DNA from: Dehalobacter sp.
Lineage (GTDB): Bacteria; Bacillota; Desulfitobacteriia; Desulfitobacteriales; Syntrophobotulaceae
Assembly (NCBI GenBank): GCA_023667845.1
Contig: JAMPIU010000143.1
Coordinates: 64,574 to 128,573, forward strand
DNA length: 64,000 nt
Direction of reading: 5' to 3'
This document shows, in pieces, positions 3,416 to 63,678 of this stretch. The notes beneath the pieces were generated by a model. That model was not told the DNA's origin and ran no database searches. It worked only from the letters and a program-made list of their open reading frames with translations. Every line of letters starts with the position of its first letter. Within the stretch, counting starts at the first letter, position 1. The position numbers were made by a program, and so were the translations under genes.

Positions 3416-3503
3416 AACACGATAAGGGCAAATCCGTCGAAAGGCGGAGACGCAAAGCCACGGGTCTAAAGCCGAAAGGTTATGGCAGCCGGGTTGCCGA
3501 ATG
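3416..3503 (+). promoter_or_regulatory. Cyclic-di-GMP-I (GEMM-I) riboswitch aptamer
   Basis: The sequence carries the GEMM-I signature in order: GGGCAAA, a GAAA tetraloop stem (CCGTCGAAAGGCGG), GACGCAAAGCCACGGG with its CTAA, a second stem-loop, then ATGGCAGCCGGGTTGCC. These match the class-I c-di-GMP aptamer, including the tetraloop and its receptor. It sits between a good promoter and a terminator (3531-3560) ahead of the secreted-protein gene at 3615, so transcription of that gene should respond to c-di-GMP. Whether binding turns it on or off depends on terminator/antiterminator pairing, which I could not fold. Confidence 0.93.
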
Positions 3504-29107: not shown

Positions 29108-29253
29108 TATTAGGAATGATGGGACTTGAACAGAAAGCGCGCCCTGTAGAAGCGTTTTCCGGCTATGGGAGGTGGCCGATCATGCAAACTCCGCTTCATA
29201 GCGGTAGGCCATCCATGGCCGTCGGAAAAAGGAAATGCGACCTATGGAAGCAT

Positions 29254-29609: not shown

Positions 29610-30770
29610 TTAAAGTCCATCAGTAATTCTCCTAATGGCTTCAATTGAATAATCCACTTCCTTGTTGGTATTATAGTGCCCAAATGAGAAGCGTAGAGTT
29701 CCAGTTGGATAAGTTTTCAATGTTTTATGGGCATTTGGAGCGCAATGCAAACCTACCCTTGTCATCACGCCATAGCGATTGTCAAGTTCAAACGAAATCT
29801 CGGCAAGATCGCGTTTGGTGGTCTGAATGGATACAACCGCTGTGCGATTGGTTATATCCGGCCTCCCAATAATCCGAATATCCGGTAATGATTTCAGCTT
29901 TTTCAAAAAACGGGCGGTCAATTCGAGTTCTTTTTCTCGAATCTTATCAATGCCTGTTTCCAATAGATACCGCAAAGCTGCATGAAGTCCGAAAATTCCC
30001 GGAAGATTCATCGTGCCTGCTTCAAATCGGTCCGGCATGAAGCCTGGTACTTCCTCTGTATGGGATAAACTCCCCGTTCCGCCGCTGATAAGGGGGTTTA
30101 TTAACGGAAACATAGCTTCTGTCGTGATAAAGCCGCCGATCCCCTGCGGTCCCAGTAAACCCTTGTGTCCGGTAAAAGCGAGGGCATCAATACCCATTGC
30201 TTGCATATCGATTGGAATAACTCCAGCCGTCTGGGCGCTATCAATAATAAAAGCCAACCCCTGTTCTTTGCAAAAACTGCCTACTTTCTGAATAGGAAGA
30301 AGTGTCCCGCAAACGTTGGAAGCGTGGGTCATGACGATCGCTTTAGTGTTCGGCCTGAGTAGCCTGGGTACTTCTTCGAACAATAACTCTCCATCCTCAG
30401 TACAGGGAATCCTATCAAATTCTACTCCGGAAGTTTGAAGCTGGATCAAAGGCCGCATGACCGCGTTATGTTCCATTGCTGAAACAAGCACATGATCGCC
30501 ATTTTGCAAGAAGCCTTTTAAGATCATATTTAAACTAGTTGTGATATTTGGAGTGAAAATAACGTTTTTACAGTTGGGGTAATTGAATAACTCACAAATG
30601 AGTTCTCTGGTTTCAATCACAATTTCATCCGCTGTATAGGCACTTTCGTAGCCACCCCGACTGATATTTGCACCGATACTCTGCATGTAGTGCACTACTG
30701 CAGCAGAAACTGAAGCTGGTTTAGGAAAAGTTGTACAAGCATTATCAAAATATATTTTGGTGAGATTCAT
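29610..30770 (-). CDS. Cysteine desulfurase family aminotransferase (selenium/sulfur module)
   Basis: A 386-residue class V PLP enzyme. It has [13 protein letters not shown] at the start, the PLP-Lys in [13 protein letters not shown] (about 202), and the catalytic-Cys loop [14 protein letters not shown] (about 342), followed by [19 protein letters not shown]. This last block is the hallmark of the TIGR01977 subfamily, found next to selenium and sulfur trafficking genes rather than of IscS/SufS. It likely mobilises S or Se from cysteine or selenocysteine as enzyme persulfide/perselenide. It is divergent from the YedE operon 203 bases away, and all lie between the tRNA-His repeats. Confidence 0.88.
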
Positions 30771-47187: not shown

Positions 47188-47244
47188 CCCATTCTAAGTC
47201 GGCTTAATCATTAAAGGAAGCGTTTTTACCATACATCATCTTCC

Positions 47245-47365
47245 TAATCCGAGGCAGGTCTCCTGGCTTACGGGTCATTCTCCTTCCGGCCTTCCCGGAT
47301 CATATCCAGTGGCATTCAGAATTCGTCTCCTCATTCTGAGGCACCTAGGATCAATCATTCATTTC
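47245..47365 (-). promoter_or_regulatory. Cobalamin (B12) riboswitch
   Basis: Read on the minus strand, the sequence contains in order TAGGTGCC, GCCACTG, GGGAAGGC, ATGACCCGTAAGCCAGGAGACCTGCC; the last element is the B12 box, followed by closing bases. It heads the btuF-btuC-btuD-cbiZ operon with a terminator in between, so corrinoid binding should stop transcription. Confidence 0.95.
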
Positions 47366-47408
47366 TCATTTCTCTACGCTTACAATATTGCATAGAAGGC
47401 CCTTTTTG

Positions 47409-47573
47409 TCAATCGGATTTTTTTTTAGGAATCCTTCCTGCTTTCCGGACGCTTTCCCGTAAGAGATATTCAATATGAGCGTTGACGCTTCGGAATTCGT
47501 CGGACGCCCATTCTTCAATCATGCTGAATAACTTTGGATCGATACGCAGCGGAAAGTTCTTCTTGTCTGCCAT
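47409..47573 (-). CDS. Small ribbon-helix-helix (Arc-like) protein
   Basis: A 54-residue protein. It starts [21 protein letters not shown], the beta strand plus first helix of an Arc/MetJ-type fold. [21 protein letters not shown] helix-turn-helix pair follows, then a basic tail ending KKKSD. AGGAGCAGG lies directly before ATG 47573. It is 32 bases downstream of the SPFH gene on the same strand, so the two are co-transcribed. Arc-like proteins bind DNA as dimers. Similar small proteins next to SPFH genes in Firmicutes are usually annotated as Arc family, but their target is unknown. Confidence 0.8.
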
Positions 47574-58603: not shown

Positions 58604-60403
58604 TCATGTCGGGGACTGAATTTTAGGCTTCATTGTTCTTTTCGGACTCGCTTTTACGGCCATTTCCTTGTAGTTGGGCGGTTTGTTGGTTGCTTCTCTG
58701 GCAGCAGTGTCTTTCTTGTTTGCGTCCTTGATTGCTTCGCTGTTTACTTCCTGAATGATGACCAGAATCATTGGACGTCTGCCGGTTCTTTGATAGAGGT
58801 GTTTTCCGACGATATCTTTGACCTTGTTTTTGATTGGCGCCCATTGGTTGATACCCTTTTGCTGGCATTCCTGCATAGCCTCTCGGATCAGGCACCTGAC
58901 TTCGCTGATAATTTCTTCCGACTCCCGCACATAAATAAACCCGCGGGTCACGACATCAGGTCCTGCAACCAATGCACCGGTCGGACGGCTGACAGTCAGA
59001 ACAGCAATCAATATCCCATCCTGCGATAACTGTTTACGGTCACGCAGTACAATATTGCCGACATCACCAATCCCGAAACCATCGATCAGAACTCTGCCTG
59101 CTGGAATACTTTCGGCCATTTTAGCGCCCTCGTCTGTAAATTCCAGAACACTGCCGTTTTCGGCAATAAAGATATTTTCTTTAGGGATGCCGACCTGCTG
59201 CGCGAGTTCAGCGTGCTTGACAAGCATGCGGTACTCACCATGTACAGGAAGGAAGTATTTCGGTTTCACCATGCTGAACATTAGTTTAAGTTCTTCTTCG
59301 CTGGCATGCCCCGAAACGTGCATTCCTGAAATCGGCTCATAGATGACATGCGCACCGAGTTTGAGCAGTTGGTCGATATTGCGGGAAATGGCTTTCTCAT
59401 TACCGGGAATCGCGCTGGCCGAAATGATGACCGTGTCGTTCTCACTGATTGAGATCTGGCGGTGGTCGCCACTGGCTATTCTGCTTAAGGCTGACATCGG
59501 TTCCCCCTGGCTGCCTGTAGTCAGGATGCAGAGCTGGTTGCCGGGATAATCCATTGCCTTGTCTACCTCAATCAGGGTTCCCTCCGGCATATCAAGATAA
59601 CCCAGATCCATCGCAATATTAATGACATTGACCATGCTTCGTCCGATTGCAGCAACTTTGCGTTGGCATTTGACGGCAGCGGAAATCGCCTGCTGCAGCC
59701 TGTTGATATTTGAAGCAAAACTAGCAAAGATAATCCGTCCTTCGGCGTGGAAAAAGGCTTCATCAATATTTTGGCCGACAGACCGCTCGGACATGGTAAA
59801 GCCGGGACGGTCGACATTCGTGCTATCCGACATCAGGCACAGAACGCCGTGTTCCCCTAGTTCGGTAAATTTGTGTATATCCAGGACATCGCCGCTGACA
59901 GGCGTATGGTCGAGCTTAAAGTCTCCGGTATGGACAATGGTACCGATCGGTGTATGGATGGCCAGGCCGACAGAGCCCGGAATACTGTGGCTGATGTTGA
60001 TGAATTCAACCCGGAAAGCGCCGAGCCGGACCGTGTCATTCGGATGAATGACATTGAGTGTCGCTTTCGTAATATTTGCTTCCTTCAGTTTGGACTGAAT
60101 CAGGCCAATTGTAAGGCGTGTCCCATAAACAGGGACATTAAGATCCTTCAATAGATAAGGGAGAGCCCCAATATGATCTTCATGGCCATGGGTAATGAGT
60201 ATCCCTGCAACCATTGCCTGGTTTTCAACCAAATACGTATAGTCCGGAATCACGATGTCAATACCTAAGAGGTCTTCATTCGGAAATGTCAGACCTGCAT
60301 CAACCAGGATAATTTTATTATTATACCGGATGACGGTCATGTTCTTGCCAATTTCCCCGAGACCTCCGAGGGGAATAATTTGCAGTTTGTTCTCTTTTGT
60401 CAA
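58604..60403 (-). CDS. rnj: Ribonuclease J
   Basis: A 599-residue metallo-beta-lactamase/beta-CASP RNase with 5' exonuclease and endonuclease activity in mRNA decay and rRNA maturation. Metal motif THGHEDHIGAL (His72, His74, Asp76, His77) and beta-CASP blocks GIVHTGDFKLDHTP-like, SDSTNVDRPGF, ITTGSQGEPMSAL-like and HVSGHASEEELKLM are present, followed by the C-terminal domain. The last about 45 residues (DTAAREATNKPPN onwards, Lys/Pro-rich) extend past the core. TTG 60403 has GGAGGT eight bases upstream. Whether it is J1 or J2 cannot be told from a single copy. Confidence 0.95.
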   Translation of the reverse strand: MTKENKLQIIPLGGLGEIGKNMTVIRYNNKIILVDAGLTFPNEDLLGIDIVIPDYTYLVENQAMVAGILITHGHEDHIGALPYLLKDLNVPVYGTRLTIGLIQSKLKEANITKATLNVIHPNDTVRLGAFRVEFINISHSIPGSVGLAIHTPIGTIVHTGDFKLDHTPVSGDVLDIHKFTELGEHGVLCLMSDSTNVDRPGFTMSERSVGQNIDEAFFHAEGRIIFASFASNINRLQQAISAAVKCQRKVAAIGRSMVNVINIAMDLGYLDMPEGTLIEVDKAMDYPGNQLCILTTGSQGEPMSALSRIASGDHRQISISENDTVIISASAIPGNEKAISRNIDQLLKLGAHVIYEPISGMHVSGHASEEELKLMFSMVKPKYFLPVHGEYRMLVKHAELAQQVGIPKENIFIAENGSVLEFTDEGAKMAESIPAGRVLIDGFGIGDVGNIVLRDRKQLSQDGILIAVLTVSRPTGALVAGPDVVTRGFIYVRESEEIISEVRCLIREAMQECQQKGINQWAPIKNKVKDIVGKHLYQRTGRRPMILVIIQEVNSEAIKDANKKDTAAREATNKPPNYKEMAVKASPKRTMKPKIQSPT

Positions 60404-60631
60404 AAACTTTTACCTCCATATTTTGTGTTGTGTCAAACAAGCAGAAAACAAGCCAAAATACGGTTAAACCCAAACGCCCCGGTGTTTAAGCATATTTCAG
60501 TAATTTTTTATTAGCCGTTCTGAGGCACATTAATTATTATTATATCACGTATTTGTGTTTTTAAACAAACATTGCCTGGGAAACCTTTCAGCTAATACGA
60601 ATTTGAATGGGATCCTTTCGCTTAAAACCTT

Positions 60632-60660
60632 TTGACTTTTTTTTACTGCCTCAGTATAAT
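60632..60660 (+). promoter_or_regulatory. Strong sigma-A promoter upstream of valS
   Basis: TTGACT at 60632-60637 and TATAAT at 60655-60660 are spaced by 17. It would start an RNA near 60667, giving a leader of about 335 nt before valS. Confidence 0.75.
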
Positions 60661-60830
60661 AAAGAAAACTTGGCTGGTGCCAAGTCTTTGGCGGTCGCTT
60701 CTTGCCATCCTTGGCATCGCGACACTAAGCCATCCGTGGCTGTCGGCAGCATTAGCTGCACTTAGATGTAACAGAAAGTATGTATACATTCTGTCATACT
60801 AAAGAAAACTTGGCTGCCACCAAGCCTTTT
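60660..60830 (+). repeat. Structured valS leader with a duplicated 17-bp motif
   Basis: TAAAGAAAACTTGGCTG occurs at 60660-60676 and again at 60800-60816, each followed by a CCAAG complement to give a hairpin. Between them are perfect small hairpins TGCCA-TCCT-TGGCA (60703-60716, enclosed by GTCGC/GCGAC), AGCCA-TCCG-TGGCT (60728-60741) and GCAGC-ATTA-GCTGC (60746-60759). No T-box consensus is seen. The remaining parts of 60404-61002 hold no gene. Confidence 0.7.
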
Positions 60831-61002
60831 GTTGTTAGCGGCAGTATAGAATTTAGAGTGGAATTGGCAGAGGGGCTGAAAGATTTCCCGATTCATTGCC
60901 GGCTGGAACTGTACAATCGTATAATATTCCGGTATGAAGTATTTATGTGAGTCTTTCGTCCTTTGGGCCGGAAGATTTTTTTGGTTCGAAAGGAGCCTTT
61001 TT

Positions 61003-63678
61003 ATGAGTGAGGATCAACAGATGGCCAAAATATATGATCCTGGCCAGGTAGAGGAAAAATGGTATCAGTATTGGGAACAGAACGGATTTTTTACGCCAAA
61101 AGTTGAACCGGAGCAGAAACCTTTCAGCATTGTGATGCCGCCGCCGAACGTAACCGGGTCTTTGCATCTCGGACACGCGATGGATAACACGCTGCAGGAT
61201 ATTCTGGCCCGTTATAAAAGAATGCAGGGATATAATACGTTATGGCTTCCCGGGACAGACCACGCGGGCATTGCCACCCAGGCCAAAGTTGAGGAACAGT
61301 TGGCCAAAGAAGGAACGAACAGACACGAACTTGGAAGAGAAAAATTTCTGGAAAGAGTCTGGGCCTGGAAGGAACAGTATGGTGGTACAATTACCCGTCA
61401 GCTGCGCAAACTAGGTGCTTCCTGTGATTGGTCACGGGAACGGTTTACCATGGACGAAGGATGTTCCAAGGCTGTAAGAGAAGTCTTTGTCAACCTTTAC
61501 AACAAAGGCCTGATTTATAGAGGGAACTATATTGTTAACTGGTGCTCCAAGTGCCATACGACCATTTCGGATATTGAAGTCGAGCATAATGAACGGGAAG
61601 GAAACCTGTGGCATATTCGTTATCCGGCAGCGGATGGCGGGGAAGGCGTTGTTGTGGCGACGACCCGTCCGGAAACGATGCTCGGAGACGTGGCGGTTGC
61701 CGTCCACCCTGAGGATGAACGGTACCGGCATCTTGCAGGAAAGAATGTAATCCTTCCTTTAGTGAAAAGAAAGATTCCGGTGATTACCGATGAATATGTC
61801 GAGAAGGAATTTGGCACCGGCGCGGTCAAAATTACGCCTGCGCATGACCCAAATGACTTTGAGATGGGGCTCCGCCATAATCTGGAGCAGATTAATATCA
61901 TGAACAGCGATGCCACCATCAACGAAAATGGCGGCAAATACCAGGGACTGGATCGATACGAAGCACGCCGCCGGATTGTCAAAGATCTGGAAGAGCTTGG
62001 CCTTTTGGTTAAGATAGAACCGCATACCCATGCAGTGGGGGAGTGTTACCGCTGTTCCACAGTGGTTGAGCCCCGGGTTAGCAGGCAGTGGTTTGTCAAA
62101 ATGAAGCCTTTAGCTGAACCGGCAATCAAAGTCGTGCAGGATGGCGATCTACAGTTTGTGCCCGACCGTTTTGCCAGGATCTATACAGGCTGGCTGGAAA
62201 ATATCCGGGATTGGTGTATATCGCGGCAGCTCTGGTGGGGTCATCGTATTCCGGTTTGGTATTGTCAGGATTGCGGAGCTGAAGTTTGCGTGAAAGAGGA
62301 TCCGGCGGCATGTCCGAAATGCGGAAGCCATCACCTGCAGCAGGATCCCGATGTTCTGGATACGTGGTTTTCTTCAGCACTCTGGCCATTCTCAACCATG
62401 GGATGGCCCGAAAATACCGCTGAACTGAAACAGTTTTATCCGACGAGTGTTCTGGTTACCGGCAGGGATATTATTTTCTTCTGGGTAGCCCGGATGATTT
62501 TTATGGGACTGGAATTCCGGGAAGATGTTCCGTTCCACAAGGTGATGATTCACGGGTTGATTCTTGACCCGCAGGGGCGCAAGATGAGCAAATCACTTGG
62601 CAACGGTGTCGATCCGATCGAAGTCATTAATCAATATGGCGCGGACACCCTGAGGTTTATGCTGATCACCGGCAACACACCGGGTAATGATCTGAGATTC
62701 CATTTTGAAAAATTAGAGTCCACCAGAAACTTTTTGAATAAAATCTGGAATGCCTCCCGTTTTGTGCTGATGAATCTGGAGGACTACCAATCGGAAGCTA
62801 AGGAACAGCCTGCCGGACCGTACGCTGCTGAGCTTACCCTGGCAGACAAATGGATCCTGTCACGCTATGAAGATACGGTTCAGAATGTCACGGCCGCTTT
62901 AGAGCGCTTTGACCTTGGGGAAGCCGGCAGACTACTCTATGAATTTATCTGGAATGAATATTGTGACTGGTACATCGAGCTGACTAAAAAACGACTTTAT
63001 ATGAAAGAAAACCAGTCTGAACGCCAGACCGCCCAGCGCATTCTCTTTGAAGTGCTGGAAGGTACAATGAGACTGATTCACCCGTTTATGCCGTTCTTAA
63101 CTGAGGAGATCTGGCAGCATCTGCCCATCAAAGGAAAGACGATTATGCTCAGCTCCTGGCCGCAGGTTGAAGGATATCGCAACGAGCAGGTTGAAAAAGA
63201 TATGAATGTCCTGATGGATATTATCCGGGCAGTGCGCAATATCCGGGCGGAGATGGGTGTCGCTCCGGGCCGCAGGGCAGATATCCTGCTCGTAGCTCCC
63301 GAAAAAGATATGCTCTCGGTTCTACAAAGCGGTCTTGCGGATATCCGGCAGCTTGCAGTTGCGGAAAACATCACAATTTTACAGCAGATGGAGAATAAGC
63401 CGCCGCAGTCTGCCAGTACGGTTCTTACTGGTGTTACCGTTTATATACCACTGAAAGGGCTGCTTGATTTGGACAAAGAAGTGGCCAAGGTCCGCAAGGA
63501 AATCGAAAATATGATCAAGGAACAGAAAAGGCTGGAAGACAAGCTCGGCAACCCAGGGTTTACCTCGAAAGCGCCGGAAGAGGTTGTTCAAAAGGAAAAA
63601 GAGAAACTGGATGATATCATGGTCAGAATGCGTTCTCTAAAACTCAGATTATCCGATTTAAGCGAAGAGCTTGAATAA
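61003..63678 (+). CDS. valS: Valyl-tRNA synthetase
   Basis: An 891-residue class Ia synthetase that charges tRNA-Val. The HIGH motif appears as HLGH (55-58), KMSKS in [14 protein letters not shown], the editing domain lies at about 195-345, with [20 protein letters not shown], a CxxC pair region ([20 protein letters not shown]) forms a zinc-like insertion, and the C-terminal coiled-coil arm is [23 protein letters not shown] 61003 follows AAAGGAG and fits the family N-terminus. A 69-base in-frame extension upstream is not conserved in character. It is followed by folC after 21 bases. Confidence 0.96.

Follow-up and report, generated by a model that had tools for sequence, protein, structure and literature searches.

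The hairpin-rich valS leader of a Dehalobacter genome is probably built of dispersed palindromic repeats lying between a promoter and the remains of a lost T-box

The window analyzed here, a 64,000-nt stretch of a Dehalobacter sp. contig, contains valS and, divergent from it, the RNase J family gene rnjA (750 bits with the RNase_J1 model, under that model's cut-off of 820), separated by an intergenic gap of 599 nt (60404–61002; Table 1). A strong promoter had been predicted in this gap, and the near-consensus TTGACT-17-TATAAT site toward valS is indeed the top-ranked of 9 promoter-like sites in 60300–61100, where shuffled sequences gave a mean of 2.0. The exact 17-bp duplication of the original prediction is likewise there: TAAAGAAAACTTGGCTG stands without mismatch at 60660–60676 and 60800–60816, with a start-to-start spacing of 140 nt, and the duplication extends to 34 nt at 85% identity. 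The leader is also as rich in hairpins as had been claimed, since the predicted fold of 60655–60840 reaches −66.7 kcal/mol (z −5.34), a value that none of 200 shuffles equaled, and its small stems include CTTGGC/GCCAAG, AGCCA/TGGCT, GCAGC/GCTGC and ACAGAA/TTCTGT, together with GTCGC/GCGAC enclosing TGCCA/TGGCA.

Table 1. Features at the rnjA–valS locus, in window coordinates.
Feature	Position	Strand	Basis
rnjA, RNase J family gene	58604–60403	−	NCBIfam TIGR00649 above cut-off; divergent from valS
Sigma-70-type promoter toward valS, TTGACT-17-TATAAT	60632–60660	+	11 of 12 consensus bases; consensus match alone
Repeat A copy 1, 140 nt with nested module	60660–60799	− (hairpin and terminator strand)	R1 match 60653–60803
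Terminator-like hairpin of A copy 1, AAGACTTGGCACCAGCCAAGTTTT CTTT	60665–60688	−	Terminator scan
Repeat B, nested two-hairpin module, 58 nt	60688–60745	+	R2, 76.7 bits, E 1.6e-15
Conserved arm of A, CTAAGTGCAGC on the minus strand	60745–60765	−	Alignment A1, R1 alignment
Hairpin P1 of A copy 1	60767–60799	−	Fold; other copies show compensatory changes
Repeat A copy 2, left end with terminator-like hairpin 60828–60805	60800–60834	−	34-nt duplication, terminator scan
Possible T-box Stem I remnant	60873–60902	+	0 of 300 shuffles against the G015 T-box leader; weak
Relic of valS T-box terminator hairpin and U-run	60949–60980	+	blastn match (E 6e-5) with T-box terminators at L255, L256 and L261
valS	61003–63678	+	ATG at 61003; NCBIfam NF004349 and TIGR00422 above cut-off

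The query 60640–60850 matched 44 places in the genome at E ≤ 1, of two kinds: some share the flanks of the 140-nt unit, which belong to a dispersed repeat of about 100 nt, here called A, and the others share its middle, a second repeat, B. With an A copy that lacks the middle as query, 30 places matched. At valS, the 140-nt unit is one copy of A. We built a model, R1, from 13 copies on the terminator strand (16 were drawn for alignment A1 and the short copies L050, L051 and L057 left out); the window copy was not among them, and R1 matches it with 63.3 bits (E 2.7e-11), the sole R1 match within the window at E ≤ 5. On the terminator strand, A runs from hairpin P1 through a conserved stretch like CTAAGTGCAGCTAAGGCTG to CTTGGCGCCAGCCAAG and TTTTCTTT, and the valS copy, on the minus strand, ends in a terminator-like hairpin and U-run. 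Of the 9 pairs counted in P1, after removal of four poorly pairing columns, 3 have changed on both sides; its covariation score beat 500 of 500 shuffles, and further measures stood out less against the shuffles (12 and 67 of 500). Changes in the terminator stem are one-sided only. The second copy follows head-to-tail at 60800, and beyond its left end it is eroded, with a weak whole-length R1 match at about 60793–60880 (27.6 bits, E 0.13; contig positions 125366–125453). At two other loci (L233 and L075), both found by one strict pattern, A copies are joined head-to-tail through the junction that is seen at valS.

The nested repeat B forms two hairpins, the GTCGC/GCGAC stem around TGCCA/TGGCA and then AGCCA/TGGCT. 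Its model, R2, was built from 15 copies, the window copy included, and gave 38 matches in this genome at E ≤ 0.001, with 30, 39, 60 and 31 in the congeners G001–G004; R2 matches 20 of the 31 genomes searched, with a maximum of 67 copies in G015. Besides the strong match at valS, the window holds one weak, truncated B-like match at 29184–29224 (E 0.006), about 120 nt past a tRNA gene. In a Desulfosporosinus copy of A (L115), B lies inside A in the same place and on the same strand as at valS; the B modules within A at L097 and L135 are in the opposite orientation or occupy a second position. In all, the 80 loci searched gave six R2 matches at E ≤ 0.05. B also occurs as the core of palindromes of about 180–200 nt (L002, L004, L007, L009 and L012), whose predicted folding energies range from −146 to −243 kcal/mol, some of them paired within 400–500 nt. 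In another genus (L261; R2 match at 30423–30480 of G013 contig C91), the valS leader has a B module downstream of an intact-looking T-box, apparently an independent arrival.

Repeat A has a wide but patchy distribution, which ranges from Desulfosporosinus to Fictibacillus and Aneurinibacillus. R1 gave 22 matches in this genome at E ≤ 0.01 and 28, 32, 31 and 28 in G001–G004; it matches 18 of the 31 genomes searched, with 0 to 33 copies in other genera. An exact 22-letter pattern of A's left end occurs in at least 120 stretches of the genome collection. The 80 matches listed come mainly from Desulfosporosinus and unclassified Bacillota, with further genera among them (Fictibacillus, Aneurinibacillus, Ammoniphilus, Metabacillus, Oceanobacillus and others), and A's other arm follows within 160 nt in 63 of these 80, compared with 2 of 1407 control windows. 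Among the 17 listed matches that lack the other arm, L108, L110 and L121 have one unrelated sequence in common and are probably chance matches. Among 398 genomes drawn evenly from the phylum, 7 contained the pattern and none its backward control; because of this and of the many genera among the listed matches, we regard the distribution as wide and patchy. At gathering score, Rfam searches over 12 loci with element copies returned just T-box and cobalamin riboswitch matches, both away from the repeats, and nothing credible over the element was found in six loci at E ≤ 10, so that A and B match no known Rfam family; the pair seems undescribed in Rfam and in the literature searched. Elsewhere in the window, a c-di-GMP-I riboswitch lies at 3417–3501 (+; 88.6 bits) and a cobalamin riboswitch at 47238–47419 (−), the latter barely above threshold (34.1 versus 31.5 bits).

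Copies of A are biased along the direction of transcription. For 22 of 24 copies in this genome, the terminator strand faces a downstream same-strand gene, often 3–215 nt before its start; the genes that follow include uppS, obgE, dnaX, alaS, pth, gyrB and rimM (alaS and gyrB partial), while a proposed rnpA was not confirmed. We pooled copies from this genome (the window copy included), G003 and the 80 listed loci, counting as genes the called ORFs no shorter than 100 codons; of 119 copies, 97 were classifiable. In co-directional gaps, 59 of 70 copies lay along the genes and 11 against (binomial p 4e-9, for copies that are not fully independent, being partly from one genome or related species), at a median of 70 nt from the next start. 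Convergent and divergent gaps held 9 and 18 copies, as in the background (Fisher p 0.26 and 1.0), and an avoidance of convergent gaps, suggested at first, was not upheld against it. The strand bias could reflect selection for, or tolerance of, termination, or a replication-linked bias in insertion.

A T-box would have been expected upstream of valS, and its consensus had been reported absent. The covariance-model search proposed at the time agrees: the window has no Rfam T-box match at gathering score, and 60540–61020 yields none at E ≤ 10, its only row being a snoRNA model at E 7.7. Downstream of the repeats, a T-box terminator has nevertheless left a trace. We located valS N-termini in 30 of 31 genomes and found T-boxes at 12 of 23 valS loci searched with Rfam, 4 of the 12 only at E 1e-12 to 1e-5; none was found at five loci of the genus (L251–L254 and L258; E ≤ 0.5) or, at the thresholds applied, in six other relatives. 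When 60949–60980 was compared with the leaders of eight relatives, 0 of 300 shuffles did as well for seven of them and 2 of 300 for the eighth. Judged by this similarity, the segment is a T-box terminator relic, which does not amount to T-box membership. A candidate Stem I remnant was rejected, being significant against one of the eight leaders, with 17 to 300 of 300 shuffles as good for the other seven. In the valS leaders of G009 and G017 (L262 and L263), the T-box sequence GGTGGTACCG and the terminator are kept, the leader is very short by eye, and Stem I seems lost, with no Rfam match at E ≤ 0.5. Because all five loci of the genus lack a T-box, with a relic here, and because these two leaders are so short, valS T-boxes appear to have decayed more than once in the family. 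The G003 leader (L258) holds just a promoter and a strong T-box-derived terminator hairpin, apparently unopposed by eye.

We then compared sites among the congeners. Of 20 A sites examined, G001 has 12 in common with this genome, including rnjA/valS with B inside, which indicates that many copies are old and stable; for G003 the count is 0 of 20 (20 of its 31 matches, two weak paralog matches being ignored), and 12 of its copies form a subfamily with 88% mean identity (79–94%), compared with 75% among 13 copies here. At valS, this genome, G001 and G002 carry the 140-nt unit and the second A copy, G004 (valS 5% diverged) has the second copy only (R1, 33 bits), and G003 (valS 21% diverged) has neither. 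The uppS site is without A in G001, has A with B in G002 and G004, and A without B in this genome; in G001 it reads GGCCAAAT followed by AAAAAACT, which would fit either an excision or an empty site of long standing. At L213, A is absent in this genome and G002 and a decayed-looking copy stands in G004; at L222, A is present in G001, G002 and G004, this genome gave no match, and G003 was not alignable. A clean insertion with target duplication was sought at uppS, alaS, L213 and L222, and none was found; the aligned differences at uppS, alaS and an ABC-transporter site resemble deletions in which ends of the element, or scars, stayed behind. Because these three look like deletions, loss of the valS unit in G004 is as possible as gain in the other three genomes. 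These site facts fit repeats that were gained and lost over time. The "inserted repeat array" that had been suggested for this leader stands as to the array, in that 60660–60834 is A, nested B and the left end of a second A, both dispersed genome-wide; the insertion event itself was not caught, and the site differences that can be read resemble losses.

Together, these results make it highly probable that the leader consists of dispersed palindromic repeats, A with nested B and an eroded second A, with the valS promoter on one side and what is left of a lost T-box on the other. Judging from the promoter, the valS transcript would probably start at A's left end and carry A in its non-terminator direction, B, the eroded A and the T-box relic. 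A and B would be non-autonomous mobile elements; along transcription, A may act as, or be tolerated only as, an intrinsic terminator, which would account for its strand bias, and at valS, read the other way, it would just add stable hairpins at the mRNA 5′ end. For the hairpins at valS, genomic litter is a likelier explanation than a new regulator, although the compensatory changes in P1 could mean selection on RNA. A valS-specific regulator replacing the T-box, the "different kind of regulator" first proposed, would have in its favor that the leader takes up the former place of the T-box, downstream of the promoter and ahead of the gene, and that this genome (G000), G001 and G002 retain it. 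The idea is hardly credible, since its parts are generic repeats whose copies adjoin unrelated genes, and the comparison of relatives named at the outset as able to refute it went against it: G004 is without the 140-nt unit, and G003 lacks both the segment and a T-box.

A cis-regulatory attenuator, in which P1 and the conserved CTAAGTGCAGCTAAGG arm sense a signal and a CGCCAA/TTGGCG antiterminator competes with the CTTGGC/GCCAAG terminator, would draw on the orientation of 22 of 24 copies toward the next gene, on mutually exclusive stems visible by eye in alignment A1, on the P1 covariation and on the housekeeping nature of the genes listed above. We find it very doubtful nonetheless: the targets have no pathway in common, the terminator stem is without both-sided changes, and G001 lives without the uppS copy. 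The window copy would have to serve the minus strand, and because a promoter-like site and 250 nt separate it from rnjA, it need not be in the rnjA transcript. A cis-regulatory RNA family had been our leading idea and was dropped because G003 has A at none of the 20 examined sites. The strand bias could instead stem from IS200/IS605-type single-strand insertion into the template of one replication arm, with no part for termination; such insertion would set the copies in line with most genes. Bacterial genes are mostly co-oriented with replication, and A has hairpin ends and no visible target duplication, as such insertion would have it; this explanation seems unlikely, however, given that the Y1 transposase domain PF01797 has no match at E ≤ 0.001 in this genome, is also absent from G002 and G004, and in G001 and G003 has no A beside it (no R1 match in ten PF01797 loci). 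A Y1 transposase partner for A, sought through PF01797 in these five genomes, was therefore rejected. Two Y1 transposases of G003 (L302 and L303; 263–268 aa) are of RAYT-like size, with no A beside either. In a further reading, which we judge quite unlikely, A would be a mobile terminator passed horizontally among Bacillota, with B and its relatives at an exchangeable tip; hosts would retain copies aligned with transcription units, and some copies would have come to serve as attenuators in housekeeping leaders.

With dispersed repeats as the explanation, a false candidate for a regulator drops out and the missing T-box is accounted for: the genus has lost it, with one relic hairpin left. The strand bias of A, in turn, makes it directly testable whether dispersed repeats serve as terminators.

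With known systems, A and B can be compared as follows. The 3′ end of this leader matches the valS T-box terminators of relatives; it differs from a T-box leader (RF00230) in being without T-box sequence, antiterminator or scoring Stem I. Compared with MITEs, A gives a mixed picture: it is dispersed, short, non-coding and multi-copy, as they are; the one inverted repeat seen is an imperfect internal palindrome, with no clear target duplication at the deletion-like uppS and ABC-transporter sites; and a search of five genomes for the transposase domain PF01797 showed no A next to its matches. A REP/REPIN system with its RAYT is not indicated, this genome having no PF01797 match and A's ends no GTAG tag by eye. 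B resembles the GTAG- and CGTC-tagged REPs in being a small, GC-rich, dispersed palindrome pair found inside other palindromes; for the CGTC-tagged class, stems of 8–9 bp are described (PMC3733652), whereas B has 58 nt, two unequal hairpins, no GTAG tag and no 8–9 bp stems. The pneumococcal SPRITE is, like A, a dispersed terminator-like repeat; its description is of a duplex of 18 bp, with a long U-rich tract, close to the 3′ ends of genes (PMC3049150), whereas A has two hairpins and a short U-run, and in co-directional gaps lies at a median distance of 70 nt from the following start. Pneumococcal repeats are described there as enriched downstream of genes (PMC3049150), whereas A's gap types follow the background. 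Closest are the BOX elements of Streptococcus pneumoniae, described there as short intergenic modular repeats in tens of copies that nest with other repeats, whose internal module boxB folds on itself and is absent or multiplied in some copies (PMC3049150). A differs from BOX in reading as a terminator on one strand and in being biased along genes, and shares with it, by description and with no sequence relation claimed, a modular architecture with an internal module (PMC3049150, as far as the cited passages go). By this analogy, the best reading of A and B is, in kind, a BOX-like modular dispersed repeat.
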